Source: Candidatus Aerophobota bacterium (GTDB taxonomy: Bacteria > Aerophobota > Aerophobia > Aerophobales > B3-G15). From it: 10,299 bases of DNA. The notes beneath the pieces were generated by a model. That model saw nothing but the letters and a program-made list of their open reading frames with translations. It was not told the origin of the DNA and did not search any database. A program made the translations under genes and the position numbers. The stretch lies in NCBI GenBank assembly GCA_030607765.1, contig JAUWJJ010000017.1, positions 1 to 10,299 of the forward strand, written 5' to 3'. Shown here piece by piece: positions 2,388-10,299 of the stretch; position 1 is the stretch's first letter, and each line of letters opens with the position of its first letter.

Positions 2388-2795
2388 TCAATAAAATTTT
2401 GTCCATAATTGCTCAGGTAAGTATACTTCTAACTCCGGTATAGGATAATGTTTTTGATTGTTGGTTAAAAGAGTCAGGTTATTAGCAACAGCTATAGCAG
2501 CAATAGCTACATCGGGAAGGGAAAGAGAAATTCCTTTTCTTTGATATTTCTTTTTATATTCTCCAGCTTGTTTAGCTATCTCTTTGGTTAATTCATAATT
2601 CTCAAGACTGTCTATGAATTCCTCAGTTACCTTTCTTTCCCTTTCTTTCATTCCAGTATAAACTTCAATAACATTAACTGGGCAGCAACCTAAAGATGAA
2701 CCTTCATAGAACATTTTCTTTATTAACTTTATTATTTTATCTTTTCCTCGAAGATAATCAATAATTATTGTGGTATCTAAAAGATATTCAGCCAT
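2388..2795 (-). CDS. vapC: VapC-family PIN-domain toxin (ribonuclease)
   Basis: A 135-residue PIN-domain protein, the usual VapC size. Acidic active-site residues are visible: D7 in YLLDTTIIIDYLRG, E44 in NVIEVYTG, and D95 in LSLPDVAIAAIAV. The last site reads LLTNNQKHYP (residues 109-118), where asparagine replaces the fourth aspartate; many VapCs have N here, so this is not a sign of decay. VapC toxins are Mg-dependent endonucleases that cut tRNA or rRNA and are held inactive by the cognate VapB. The ATG at 2793-2795 lies 3 bp after the stop of the upstream antitoxin gene, a standard translationally coupled TA order. The frame is open over the full family length with no lesion. Chromosomal VapBC pairs of this sort are commonly horizontally acquired. 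Confidence 0.9.
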   Translation of the reverse strand: MAEYLLDTTIIIDYLRGKDKIIKLIKKMFYEGSSLGCCPVNVIEVYTGMKERERKVTEEFIDSLENYELTKEIAKQAGEYKKKYQRKGISLSLPDVAIAAIAVANNLTLLTNNQKHYPIPELEVYLPEQLWTKFY

Positions 2796-2798
2796 AAC

Positions 2799-3080
2799 TT
2801 ATTTTGTTACCTTTCTAAATCTTTTTTCCGATTCTTCTCTAAAATCTCTTACCCATTTATAAGTTCCTTTCTTTTCAAGTTCGGGGTGATCCTCATCTTT
2901 CCATGCTCCTGCTGCTCTTTCTAATGCTCTTTGAAGGTGGATTCTTTTTAATTCTTTTCGGGTCACTTTAGTTATAAATTTACTCCTCTTCCTTCTTCCA
3001 ATTAACTCATCTATTTCTTTTACCAAATCTTCAGGAAGAATTAAAGGAGTCTTAACCATTTTACTTTTTTCTTTAAACAT
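2799..3080 (-). CDS. vapB: VapB-type ribbon-helix-helix antitoxin
   Basis: A 93-residue protein directly upstream of vapC. Residues 10-47 (KTPLILPEDLVKEIDELIGRR...RSKFITKVTRKELKR) show the basic beta strand and two helices of a ribbon-helix-helix DNA-binding fold; the C-terminal half, with AGAWKDEDHPEL and KWVRDFREESEKR, matches the toxin-wrapping tail of RHH VapBs. Such antitoxins neutralise VapC and, with it, repress their own promoter. Start: ATG at 3078-3080 has GAGGG six bases upstream; the methionine at residue 8 lacks this site, so I prefer the longer form. A sigma70-like promoter (3121-3148) lies about 40 bp upstream, so vapBC is probably its own operon. I did not find a clear operator palindrome. 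Confidence 0.87.
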   Translation of the reverse strand: MFKEKSKMVKTPLILPEDLVKEIDELIGRRKRSKFITKVTRKELKRIHLQRALERAAGAWKDEDHPELEKKGTYKWVRDFREESEKRFRKVTK

Positions 3081-4108: not shown

Positions 4109-4164
4109 ATGTAGCTCAGGTCTTTAGACCTGACAATAGGCAGACCTAAAGGTCTGCACTACAT
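4109..4164. repeat. REPIN-like doublet, 56 nt, best-preserved copy
   Basis: ATGTAG (4109-4114) and CTACAT (4159-4164) are exact inverted ends. The left hairpin is TCAGGTCT/AGACCTGA (overlapping at the centre, 4116-4133) and the right hairpin is GCAGACC, TAAA, GGTCTGC (4140-4157). Each half is GTAG plus a hairpin, and the two halves are inverted. It ends 34 bp upstream of the -35 box at 4198, so it bounds the promoter region of the next gene. Confidence 0.72.
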
Positions 4165-5514: not shown

Positions 5515-6243
5515 ATGGCTCTAATTGTTCAAAAATATGGGGGAAGCTCTTTATCTACCCCGGAAAGAATCAAAAAAGTAGCTAAAAGAATTATTAAAAC
5601 AAAATCGCAGAACAATAAGGTAGTAGTGGTGGTATCGGCTATGGGAGACACTACAGATAAACTTCTGGATTTGATGTATAAGGTTAGCTTGAATCCCCCA
5701 AAAAAAGAAATGGACCTTTTACTATCCACGGGTGAGGTTATCTCTACTTCTTTACTTACCGCAGCTCTTCATTCTCTGGGAGGGGGGGCAATTTCCTTTA
5801 CCGCTTATCAAGGAGGAATAGTTACCGATGAGAACCATACTAAAGCGCGTATTCAAAAAATAAATCCTCAAAAAATAATGGAAGAGATTGAAAGGAATAA
5901 AATTGTAGTGGTAGCTGGCTTTCAAGGTATAACTTCTAAAAATGCTGTAACTACTCTGGGAAGAGGTGGCTCTGATACTACTGCTGTAGCCTTAGCTGCT
6001 GCTTTAAAAGCGGATATTTGTGAGATTTACAGTGATGTAGAGGGGGTATTTACTGCTGATCCCCGAATAGTGCACAGTGCAAGGAAAATTCACCGAATCT
6101 CTTACGATGAAATGTTAGAACTGGCGAGTTTAGGGGCTAAAGTTTTAAATCTTCGTGCCGTGGAAATGGCCAAGAAATACCAGGTTACTCTACATGTTCG
6201 CTCCAGTTTTAGTGAAAATCAAGGAACATTAATCACCACTTAA
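5515..6243 (+). CDS. lysC: aspartokinase, catalytic part (split from its ACT domains)
   Basis: Phosphorylates aspartate, the first step to lysine, threonine, methionine and diaminopimelate. The amino-acid-kinase domain is complete: VQKYGGSSL (5-13, K7), STGE (71-74), GRGGSDTTA (149-157), and [12 protein letters not shown] (173-184) for ATP binding. I start at ATG 5515 because GAGGG ends four bases upstream and [10 protein letters not shown] matches family N-termini; an in-frame GTG at 5500 would add five residues. At 242 residues it is far below the usual 400-410: a TAA at 6241-6243 ends it after [16 protein letters not shown], at the domain linker. The same frame resumes as the ACT part. Either a one-codon break produced a two-polypeptide enzyme, or the gene is damaged. 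The catalytic domain itself is intact. Feedback control would depend on the ACT polypeptide. Confidence 0.9.
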
Positions 6244-6250
6244 GGAGTAA

Positions 6251-6281
6251 ACCCCGTTAGATGTTTGCTATCTAATGGGGT
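6251..6281 (+). repeat. 12-bp palindrome at the aspartokinase domain junction
   Basis: ACCCCGTTAGAT (6251-6262) pairs with ATCTAATGGGGT (6270-6281) around the loop GTTTGCT; the only non-Watson-Crick position is a G.U pair in RNA. It begins seven bases after the TAA of the catalytic part and lies between a GGAG (6244-6247) and ATG 6292. As RNA it would bring that GGAG nearer to the ATG. The encoded linker, NPVRCLLSNGVN, is not part of normal aspartokinases, so the palindrome looks inserted. There is no T-tract, so a terminator is unlikely. Confidence 0.75.
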
Positions 6282-6801
6282 AAATGTTAATATGAAATTA
6301 GCTAAATCATCAAAAGAATTAATGGAACAGTTTATGGTTACCGGGATAGCTCTTAATGAAAATGAGGCAAAAATAACAGTGAAGAGAGTTCCCGATAAAC
6401 CAGGGATAGCAGGTTTTCTTTTTACTGAGCTTGCCAAATCGAATATCAATGTAGATATGATTGTTCAGAGCGGCGGAAGGGAAGGCAAAAATGACATTAG
6501 TTTTACTGTAAATAAAAGTGATTTAAAACAGGTAAAGGGGATTATGGAAAAGATGAAATCAGATTTAAAAGCGAAACAGGTAACCTACGATTCGGATATG
6601 GCTAAGGTTTCCATAGTAGGAGCAGGAATGCAGTCTTACCCTGGGGTAGCTGCCAGGATGTTTACCTGCCTGGGGAAAGCAGGGATAAATATAGATCTGA
6701 TAAGTACCTCTGAGATAAAGATCTCCTGTGCAGTAAAGAAAGAAGAGGGAGCAAGAGCGGTAAAGATTATTCATCAAGAATTTGAATTGGATAAGGAGTA
6801 A
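6265..6801 (+). CDS. aspartokinase regulatory part, two ACT domains
   Basis: Corresponds to the C-terminal half of a standard aspartokinase. It opens with MEQFMVTGIALNENEAKITV, then ACT 1 (VPDKPGIAGFLFTELAKSNI then NVDMIVQ) and ACT 2 (AKVSIVGAGMQSYPGVAARM, with GINIDLISTSEIKISCAV). These domains bind end-product amino acids (lysine and/or threonine) and dimerise. The frame is the same as the catalytic part, so one TAA separates them. The start is uncertain: TTG 6265 lies in the loop of a hairpin, while ATG 6292 (giving 169 residues) follows the hairpin and is more credible. Bacillus aspartokinase II makes a similar-sized beta subunit from an internal start, so a separate ACT subunit is workable. 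Its stop (6799-6801) is 4 bp from the asd start, and the GGAG for asd lies in its last codons, implying coupling. Confidence 0.85.
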   Translation: MLSNGVNVNMKLAKSSKELMEQFMVTGIALNENEAKITVKRVPDKPGIAGFLFTELAKSNINVDMIVQSGGREGKNDISFTVNKSDLKQVKGIMEKMKSDLKAKQVTYDSDMAKVSIVGAGMQSYPGVAARMFTCLGKAGINIDLISTSEIKISCAVKKEEGARAVKIIHQEFELDKE

Positions 6802-6805
6802 AAAT

Positions 6806-7822
6806 TTGAGTAGGGGTTATAATGTTGCCGTTGTTGGAGCTACAGGGGCAGTTGGGGAGGAGATGTTAAAAATTTTGCAGCAGCGAGAATTCCCCTTGAG
6901 GAACTTGAGAGTTTTAGCTTCAAAGAGATCTGAGGGGAAACTGCTGGAATTTAAGGAAGAAAAGTTAAAGGTGGAGAAGTTATCTTCAGCTTCCTTTAAA
7001 GGAATAGAGATAGCTCTATTTTCTGCTGGAGCCTCTATCTCACGTGAGTTCTCTCCTAAAATGGTAAAGATGGGGGCAGTGGTAGTTGATAACTCAAGTG
7101 CTTTTAGAATGGAGAAAAATGTGCCTTTAATAGTGCCTGAGGTTAATCCTCGGGCTTTAAAAAATCATCGGGGGATAATTGCCAATCCTAACTGCTCAAC
7201 AATTCAACTGGTGGTAGCTGTTAATCCCATCCACCTTAGGGCTAAAATTAAGAGAATGGTTATCTCCACTTTTCAAGCAGTATCAGGGACTGGAAGAGAG
7301 GCAATTCTTGAGCTAAAAAAACAAAGCGAGAATTGTTTAACCGGTAGTTTAATTACAAAGGAAGTTTATCCTCACCAAATTGGTTTTAACCTGCTTCCCC
7401 ACATTGGACAGTTTCTTCCCAGCGGATATACTGATGAGGAAATAAAACTGGTTAATGAAACAAGGAAAATTATGGAGGATGAAAGCATTGCTATAACGGC
7501 AACCTGCGTTAGGGTTCCTGTATTTATCTCTCACTCCGAAGTAGTAACTCTGGAAACCAAAGAAAAAATAAGTGTGAAAAAGGTAAGGGAAATTTTAGCC
7601 TCTTCTCCCGGAGTAATAGTGAGGGATGAACCTCAAAAAAATTTCTACCCTCTTCCTATAGAAGCAGCAGGGAGGGATGAGGTTTTTGTGGGTAGAATAA
7701 GAGAGGATGAATCCGTACCAAACGGTCTTAACCTCTGGGTAGTAGCTGATAACTTGCGCAAAGGAGCTGCTTTAAATACCATTCAAATTGCTGAATTCCT
7801 TATTCAGGAAAGGTTAATCTAA
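6806..7822 (+). CDS. asd: aspartate-semialdehyde dehydrogenase
   Basis: Reduces aspartyl phosphate to aspartate semialdehyde with NADPH, the step after aspartokinase and the branch point for diaminopimelate/lysine and homoserine. At 338 residues it has family length. Visible features: NADP-binding GATGAVGEEM (11-20), VVDNSSAFRM (93-102), VPEVNP (110-115), ANPNCST (126-132) with nucleophile C130, STFQAVSGTG (154-163) with Q157, and ATCVRVPVFISHSE (232-245) with R236 and the general base H243. I place the start at TTG 6806: GGAG at 6795-6798 has ideal 7-base spacing and the N-terminus MSRGYNVAVVGATG fits; an in-frame TTG at 6782 would add eight residues inside the preceding gene. It is the last gene of the plus-strand operon and its stop lies 9 bp from that of a convergent gene, with no intrinsic terminator between. 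Confidence 0.95.
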   Translation: MSRGYNVAVVGATGAVGEEMLKILQQREFPLRNLRVLASKRSEGKLLEFKEEKLKVEKLSSASFKGIEIALFSAGASISREFSPKMVKMGAVVVDNSSAFRMEKNVPLIVPEVNPRALKNHRGIIANPNCSTIQLVVAVNPIHLRAKIKRMVISTFQAVSGTGREAILELKKQSENCLTGSLITKEVYPHQIGFNLLPHIGQFLPSGYTDEEIKLVNETRKIMEDESIAITATCVRVPVFISHSEVVTLETKEKISVKKVREILASSPGVIVRDEPQKNFYPLPIEAAGRDEVFVGRIREDESVPNGLNLWVVADNLRKGAALNTIQIAEFLIQERLI

Positions 7823-9488: not shown

Positions 9489-9953
9489 TTAAAAATTAAA
9501 CTTTTGCTGAGGATTTTCTTTTTTAGCTAATTCTATAATTTTTTTCATAAATTCTTCTGCAGTCCTTAAAGCATTTTTAGCCTCCAACTTTGAGACGGGA
9601 AGAAAGGGATCGTAAGTAAATTAATTTTGCTTTCGCCGCATATTATCAAATTTTTTAACAATATTTATAAATTTCCCCCCAAGAATTTTTCCCGTAAATT
9701 CTATAACAATTTTGTGTTGTTGACCATCAGTTGGCCTACATCCCTTCATAAACATTATTGCTCTGCCACATCTAAGCATTGCTAAATAAGCATAATTATA
9801 AGTTACTTCTTCATCAATTTTTAAGTTAGCCTTTGAGGCAATCAAATCTTTCTTTGCTCGAAATAAAAGTGCATCAATTTGATTAAAATTTACTTTTTGT
9901 TTTTTTATTAGACCACGGTTAAGCAATCTTTTAAATGTGGTGCTATAATTCAT
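9489..9953 (-). pseudogene. HEPN-domain protein of an MNT-HEPN pair, interrupted by an in-frame TAA
   Basis: The open part (9621-9953, 110 codons, ATG 9951-9953) shows an all-helical HEPN protein: NYAYLAMLRCGRAIMFMKGC (53-72), then RPTDGQQH (73-80), which fits the R-x(4-6)-H motif of HEPN ribonucleases, and KKFDNMRRKQN at the end. A TAA at 9621-9623 stops it, yet the same frame goes on FTYDPFLPVSKLEAKNALRT then AEEFMKKIIELAKKENP, to a TAA at 9489-9491. That continuation is the expected final helix of the family (FD.MRRKRN.FTYD...), giving a normal length near 154. The lesion removes about 43 residues after the motif. In MNT-HEPN systems the HEPN protein is the toxin and the MNT partner silences it. 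The start overlaps the upstream MNT stop by 11 bp. Confidence 0.78.
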
Positions 9954-10299
9954 TTTTGTCCCCTATCAAAAATATCTTCCGCTCTTTTATAACCTCTAAA
10001 ATAAATGGGTTGCCTTCTTTTTTCTTTTGTTCAGAGTCACTTTTTTCATAAAGAGTGAAATTTATTTCTCTTTGTAATTTTTTCTCAAGTTTATTAGCTT
10101 CATCGATAAGTCTCCCCTCATCTATTTTACCTATAATAAATAGGTCTATATCGCTTGTCTCTCTTTCCTCACCTTTAGCAAAAGAGCCATAAATAAAAGC
10201 ATATTCTATTCCTTGTATTTTCTTTAAGGACTCTTTAAGCATTCTTGGAACACCAGAAGTTTTTGAAATAATGCTTTTTAATTCCTGAAAAAGAGGAAA
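9943..10299 (-). CDS. MNT-type nucleotidyltransferase antitoxin, N-terminus beyond window
   Basis: Partner of the HEPN gene. The visible 118 residues hold a minimal nucleotidyltransferase fold: IYGSFAKGEERETSDIDLFI, with the GS...SDxDL metal and nucleotide site, then KLEKKLQREINFTLYEKSDS and KIFLIGDKNEL at the end. A methionine at 10240-10242 could be taken as the start, but the frame is open to the window edge and its upstream residues (FPLFQELKSIISKTSGVPR) match the linker between an N-terminal winged helix and the transferase in wHTH-MNT proteins. I therefore treat it as a partial gene that began outside. MNT antitoxins AMPylate or otherwise neutralise HEPN toxins; a winged helix would add autoregulation. 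The stop overlaps the HEPN start codon region, as usual for such pairs. Confidence 0.82.
   Translation of the reverse strand, partial: FPLFQELKSIISKTSGVPRMLKESLKKIQGIEYAFIYGSFAKGEERETSDIDLFIIGKIDEGRLIDEANKLEKKLQREINFTLYEKSDSEQKKKEGNPFILEVIKERKIFLIGDKNEL

Follow-up and report, generated by a model that had tools for sequence, protein, structure and literature searches.

The aspartokinase of the Aerophobota is, we think likely, a two-gene enzyme that was divided in an ancestor at an internal start already present, its two genes first overlapping and only later being parted by a spacer and a repeat, and its two products, alpha and beta, forming a complex that senses effectors. We lean, with less assurance, towards a broader reading: that the enzyme is obligately two-gene in this phylum, internal starts being selected in many lineages, and that here the redundant tail was lost and the loss fixed phylum-wide. 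Aspartokinase catalyses the first step in making lysine and threonine, and in most bacteria it is a single gene. If the proposal is true, the Aerophobota, a little-known bacterial phylum, present a natural, phylum-wide case in which the catalyst and the sensor of an allosteric enzyme have come apart, and they put a natural catalytic-only aspartokinase on offer.

The divided gene in the window

The window, by which we mean the whole analysed stretch of 10,299 nucleotides from a Candidatus Aerophobota bacterium, carries the divided gene upstream of asd, with the following features.

Within the window, + strand: nicotinate phosphoribosyltransferase gene, sharing its strand with lysC-alpha, lysC-beta and asd
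5515..6243, + strand: lysC-alpha, a lone catalytic aspartokinase domain, 242 aa (AA_kinase, 2.8e-55)
6244..6247, + strand: GGAG, possible Shine-Dalgarno of lysC-beta (from the sequence)
6248..6251, + strand: TAAA, on the repeat's left, probably one half of a 4-base target duplication (identical flanks occur elsewhere)
6252..6280, + strand: 29-base palindromic repeat CCCC...GGGG, forming an RNA hairpin together with its neighbours (6251-6281)
6281..6284, + strand: TAAA, right flank of the repeat, probable second duplication copy (from flank comparison)
6284..6295, + strand: short frame ATG TTA ATA TGA, its stop overlapping ATG 6292 (from the sequence)
6292..6801, + strand: lysC-beta, two ACT domains, 169 aa, start ATG 6292 (ACT_9, 2.3e-37, and other ACT families)
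6795..6798, + strand: GGAG ahead of asd (from the sequence)
6806..7822, + strand: asd, aspartate-semialdehyde dehydrogenase, probable TTG start at 6806 (NF011456, 5.4e-149)

The catalytic frame (5515-6240) is closed by TAA at 6241-6243, and this stop, the GGAG at 6244-6247 and ATG 6292 all lie where the preliminary description had placed them. Its view that catalysis and regulation are here encoded by two distinct genes is upheld by the separate frames seen in the window and in its relatives. Pfam assigns AA_kinase to the first half of the split lysC and ACT families to the second, and by profile comparison lysC-alpha matches the catalytic part of NF005155 and of related aspartate kinase models. 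The two halves together cover NF005155 from end to end (residues 1-241 and 243-405), and lysC-alpha alone scores 375 bits against a cut-off of 346. It keeps KYGGSS and GRGGSD, which we take to be the kinase motifs. In the window lysC-beta lies in the same frame as lysC-alpha with a single stop codon between the halves, a relation particular to this copy: three in-frame stops separate the halves of L001/L081, and in L002/L082 and at nine junctions of the overlap type one half is out of frame with the other. The gene asd begins 4 bases past lysC-beta, in keeping with the placement proposed earlier, and lies 3' of lysC-beta in 8 of 13 phylum loci, several of the others ending near a contig end.

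Two further gene pairs were seen on the - strand of the window. At 2388-3080 a PIN-domain protein has upstream of it a small gene to which Pfam assigns no family, presumably an arrangement like that of a toxin-antitoxin pair, and at 9621-10242 a Nucleotidyltransferase-domain protein overlaps a small protein without a Pfam match, which we take to be an arrangement like that of an MNT/HEPN-type pair.

The palindromic repeat at the junction

The palindrome reported at the junction is present, with arms at 6251-6262 and 6270-6281, and is imperfect: 11 of 12 pairs are Watson-Crick and one is a G-T mismatch, which is a wobble pair in RNA. The RNA from 6248 to 6284 is predicted to fold into a hairpin of 13 bp (-18.8 kcal/mol, z -6.3), and since none of 200 shuffles was as stable, the hairpin is more than chance. 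A general repeat finder run on the window did not have the palindrome at 6251-6281 among its output, and the window gave no match to Rfam at gathering thresholds. Other palindromic repeats lie at 182-228, 4117-4132 and 4140-4157 of the window, with AGGTCT arms and TTTA, TAAA or TTTTA centres.

The preliminary description had looked ahead to further copies of the palindrome, and the pattern CCCCRTTAGA-N3to25-TCTAAYGGGG finds 18 family members in 5 of 17 phylum genomes, its reversed control finding none. Identical 4-base flanks border 12 of 16 copies (TAAA or TTTA in 11, TAGA in one; the 16 include the window and leave out three G016 copies without a locus), as against 0.8% of random places. At three G016 sites (L101, L106 and L107) the palindrome is nested inside another palindromic repeat, CGCAACCTTTAGGTTGCG, whose TTTA it interrupts. 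Uninterrupted copies of CGCAACCTTTAGGTTGCG number 26, in three of the five genomes searched; the three G016 insertions look alike and are therefore probably one event. Open frames of more than 120 codons run across the palindrome at 4 of the 16 sites (L098, L099, L108 and the window). The family is thus a small inserted element with a probable 4-base target duplication, and because it is multi-copy and has identical flanks, the palindrome most likely landed in an existing gap, entering the spacer between alpha and beta later than the split. In being short, multi-copy and inverted-repeat, with a probable 4-base target duplication, it resembles the MITE-like and small palindromic insertion repeats reviewed in PMC10969869 and PMC2229807; the CCCCRTTAGA family differs in matching no named family.

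How beta would be translated across this insertion bears on whether the hairpin has a function. The MEQ motif follows ATG 6292 at a distance of 10 residues, as it does the start of L001, and 44 bases separate this ATG from GGAG 6244, of which 13 are unpaired when the hairpin is folded. The folded hairpin may bring GGAG 6244 closer to ATG 6292. Alternatively, ribosomes finishing alpha would melt the hairpin and free the GGGG at 6277-6280, with beta still made; the short frame at 6284..6295 might, speculatively, be a re-initiation site. One may then ask whether the hairpin is a dedicated regulator of beta relative to alpha synthesis rather than a tolerated passenger, given that a stable fold sits between GGAG and the beta start and that its right arm places GGGG 3 bases ahead of the short ATG frame overlapping ATG 6292. 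We consider this unlikely, as the family occurs at other sites in 5 of 17 genomes, mostly without a long frame across it, and is absent from the junctions of the 13 relatives.

Distribution of the split, junctions and trees

Matches to the catalytic half were found at 144 loci, of which 80 were kept for comparison. The nearest relatives of the catalytic half among these are two Ca. Aerophobetes MAGs (L001 at 73% and L002 at 68%), and both are split; by BLAST the ACT half follows in frame without a stop in 77 of the 78 others, and the remaining one, L057, has no BLAST ACT match and an open frame of 393 aa. Within the phylum, lysC-alpha is found in 14 of 17 genomes as stand-alone frames of 178-277 aa and lysC-beta in 13 of 17 as stand-alone frames of 136-190 aa, no genome giving more than a single match to either at E 1e-10. 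The coordinates show that the alphas of G008, G004 and G011 and the beta of G010 are truncated by a contig end or begin close to one. No fused aspartokinase was found among the alpha or beta matches in these 17 genomes. Every one of the 13 genomes in which both halves were found is split, so the suggestion that the division is fixed in the lineage held up, and the division is probably ancestral to the Aerophobota. Four of the 17 genomes lack a beta match and three an alpha match, which counts against a simple phylum-wide story.

Searches of the protein collection give a similar picture. The closest three alpha proteins (98, 91 and 85% identical) are 242 aa each, as in the window, and among the best 120 alpha matches 94 are at most 270 aa and 26 at least 340 aa long. 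The best 120 beta matches span 155-182 aa, the six nearest being four of 169 aa, one of 170 and one of 155. At E 1e-20 or better there are 2128 beta matches of about 93-296 aa, candidates limited by length that may include fragments. A scan of viral contigs for the beta half gave 8 pattern matches and no true relative. Both halves had been called undamaged, and this agrees with purifying selection on alpha and beta in relatives: dN/dS was 0.058-0.159 in 7 computable alpha or beta comparisons, one further beta comparison not being computable.

Beyond the phylum the fused form prevails in the genomes searched. Among 16 other genomes the ACT half was found in 15, where the top match lies in frames of 402-478 aa; a further, distant ACT match of 177 aa occurs in G030. 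In the Calescamantes (the phylum of L011) 6 of 7 genomes have the ACT half, in frames of 407-422 aa, and in the Omnitrophota (the phylum of L004) 34 of 35 genomes have it, 33 of the 35 matches lying in frames of at least 255 aa and the other two being short (101 and 107 aa) and at contig starts. Among the Bacillota (the phylum of L003) it occurs in 71 of 101 genomes with 73 matches, three of them in short frames. One of the three, in G146, is cut by a contig end and does not count as a split. In G122 (L131) a catalytic frame of 266 aa overlaps an ACT frame of 172 aa in a different frame on a contig of 3.17 Mb, and the genome has a second, fused aspartokinase gene of 426 aa. The third, in G103 (L130), is a free double-ACT gene that follows genes identified by eye as those of threonine synthesis. 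It may encode a regulatory subunit expressed on its own, and G103 has a fused aspartokinase of 415 aa as well. Short control frames were likewise rejected as splits in G053 and G047, where contig ends cut them and the catalytic part lies upstream, and in G048 and G054, where match coordinates put their starts at most 10 bases from the contig start. Split or free regulatory copies elsewhere are thus sporadic (2 of 101 Bacillota genomes), with the fused enzyme alongside.

We read the alpha/beta junction in 13 phylum genomes, a set outside which the closest relatives, P0121-P0123 and P0001-P0006, lie. Nine junctions are of an overlap type, in which alpha ends in TTGNNTRA, the TTG is the beta start and GGAGG lies upstream inside alpha. 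Both TTG and GGAGG are kept in all nine, and the last alpha codon varies (GAA, GAG, GCT, GTC, GGC or GAT). Three junctions (L081, L082 and L090) have a spacer and an ATG start. In L086 (1282-1500) there are 194 extra bases, and a Shine-Dalgarno-TTG module, GAGGGAACAATAATTGA, stands at either end of them; in L089, closely related to L086, the junction is a plain overlap. From the 194-base extra in L086 and the palindrome in the window it follows that extra DNA entered the junction at least twice, after the split. As the overlap is found on both deep sides of the tree, we infer that the overlapping arrangement is ancestral and that spacers came later.

In the window the halves are parted by one in-frame stop only, and in the nine overlap junctions the second frame continues at canonical spacing, so that a single protein made by stop read-through or programmed frameshifting might be imagined. 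Such a protein is very unlikely: it would have to be read across three in-frame stops in L081, a spacer in L082 and L090 and the extra bases in L086. In the overlap junctions, moreover, the varying last alpha codon leaves no shared slippery site, and what is kept in all nine is TTG and GGAGG. The proposal in the preliminary description that a fused gene was broken in the window's lineage by the palindrome, whose insertion would have brought in the stop, we find scarcely credible. The repeat does lie exactly at the break, and the halves do share a frame in the window; however, the 13 relatives that have both halves are divided too, and the window palindrome is absent from each of the 13 junctions at which it was sought; three near relatives stop alpha at the same codon, and neither the repeat nor its duplicated flanks include the TAA. 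The comparison with relatives thus yielded a shared division and no shared palindrome, and the preliminary interpretation is partly supported overall: the split is real, its origin in the palindrome is not borne out. The reading that is left, of a phylum-wide and probably ancestral division, is broader than the original idea. A sequencing or assembly fault in a fused gene, for which the draft, metagenome-like source might speak, can practically be dismissed, the split being common to independent assemblies from several sources (13 phylum genomes and 94 of the best 120 alpha proteins).

In a tree of alpha and beta together (36 rows) a single clade (100/100) unites the 14 Aerophobota rows, with uneven support inside it, and this, with the similarity of the catalytic half to L001 and L002, points to the window's place in the phylum; the window groups with the spacer-type L081, L082 and L090 (96/74), and the overlap-type L088 is the next branch after this group (96/90). 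The alpha-only tree (156 rows), in which the chosen outgroup is not one side of a branch, has a clade of 108 split rows and one fused row, P0145 (99/93). This fused protein of 404 aa is nested among split rows (96/82), against the simple story, and its position requires two changes on the alpha tree; P0145 might be a re-fusion, an assembly fault or the mark of two fissions.

Internal starts, function and known systems

According to PMC8690038, the beta subunits of known alpha2-beta2 aspartokinases come from in-frame overlapping genes. Ribosome profiling in C. jejuni is reported to show a putative internal start from which a LysC beta subunit would be made (PMC11955535, which also cites the internal-start case of B. 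subtilis). The comparison with Bacillus aspartokinase II in the preliminary description was a good lead and has become central to our reading. In alignments with the solved beta chains 5yei_D and 2dtj_A, their residue 1 falls on residue 11 of the window beta, which has 10 residues ahead of the MEQ-type motif where solved free beta chains begin.

We asked whether fused genes have, from -45 to +15 bases of the codon for beta residue 11, a Shine-Dalgarno match together with an ATG, GTG or TTG in frame. The rows were 76 fused genes of the 80 loci, within L003-L080, leaving out L001 and L002 (split), L057 (no BLAST ACT match) and L062 (computed gene start on a stop codon). A Shine-Dalgarno of at least 5 bases with an in-frame start was present in 63 of these 76 genes, which are related and do not represent independent events (L006 and L007 share the same junction), as against 28.1 in 200 synonymous shuffles (sd 3.5, max 38). 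At a length of at least 6 bases there were 42 of 76 against 11.0 (sd 2.7, max 18), and at least 4 bases 73 of 76 against 54.3 (sd 3.3, max 62). Elsewhere in fused genes the signal of at least 5 bases was seen in 4.4% of 1005 stretches. The excess over synonymous shuffles means that the amino acids account for part of the internal-start signal and not for all of it, and suggests far more internal beta starts in lysC than the handful that have been studied.

With this in mind, one may propose how the two genes arose. The ancestor would have had a fused gene whose internal start already produced free beta, as in the known alpha2-beta2 enzymes. A single frame change in the linker would then have removed the regulatory tail from alpha, the internal start still yielding beta. 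The first layout would have been one of overlapping genes, with the beta TTG in the last alpha codons and its Shine-Dalgarno in the alpha KEGT codons, an arrangement that should couple the translation of alpha and beta. On the branch of the window, the overlap would have given way to a spacer with an ATG start, into which the small repeat was then inserted. This route, by loss of the tail at a pre-existing internal start, would fit both the split point and the overlap. If it is correct, the intermediates are visible (a nested internal start elsewhere, overlapping genes, spaced genes and repeat-filled spacers), and one route of gene fission becomes testable, in which the free subunit comes first and separation second.

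The two parts would make up a working enzyme with beta as the effector sensor. Alpha and beta probably form a complex, with beta sensing threonine and/or lysine. Of the effector positions of C. glutamicum, listed mostly from a table in PMC10464499, the equivalents of A279, Q298, I375 and S381 are kept in 14 of 14 beta rows and that of E382 in 13 of 13 readable rows. In readable Aerophobota rows I272 is replaced by V or L, T361 by A and N372 by G or K; the changes at N372 and T361 count against effector sensing by an alpha-beta complex.

Our literature search found no description of a split aspartokinase in the Aerophobota and no paper on Aerophobetes with aspartate kinase, most subscription papers being outside its scope. 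Among systems that are known, TIGR02078 (AspKin_pair, a putative Pyrococcus aspartate kinase subunit) also points, by the model's name, to more than one gene product; the window alpha scores 126.5 bits and does not reach its cut-off of 242.4, while beta does not match the model at all. Fused aspartokinases of the PRK06635 group (~400 aa) contain the same halves, which match one model, and some have asd as a neighbour, whereas the window has two genes with the ACT pair on a separate frame, as in the 13 phylum genomes. The Bacillota copy in G122 is like the window in that its catalytic and ACT frames are separate genes; unlike the phylum genomes, with one alpha match per Aerophobota genome, G122 has a fused enzyme too. 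A close parallel in the regulatory part is offered by the alpha2-beta2 aspartokinases of C. glutamicum, T. thermophilus and P. aeruginosa, which PMC8690038 lists, and by B. subtilis AK II: these share with the window the starting point of a free double-ACT beta and its expected effector binding. In those enzymes, however, alpha has ACT domains of its own and the beta reading frame is contained in that of alpha, whereas in the window alpha has nothing beyond the catalytic domain and beta has a gene to itself, the betas of this type lying in another frame or after a spacer.
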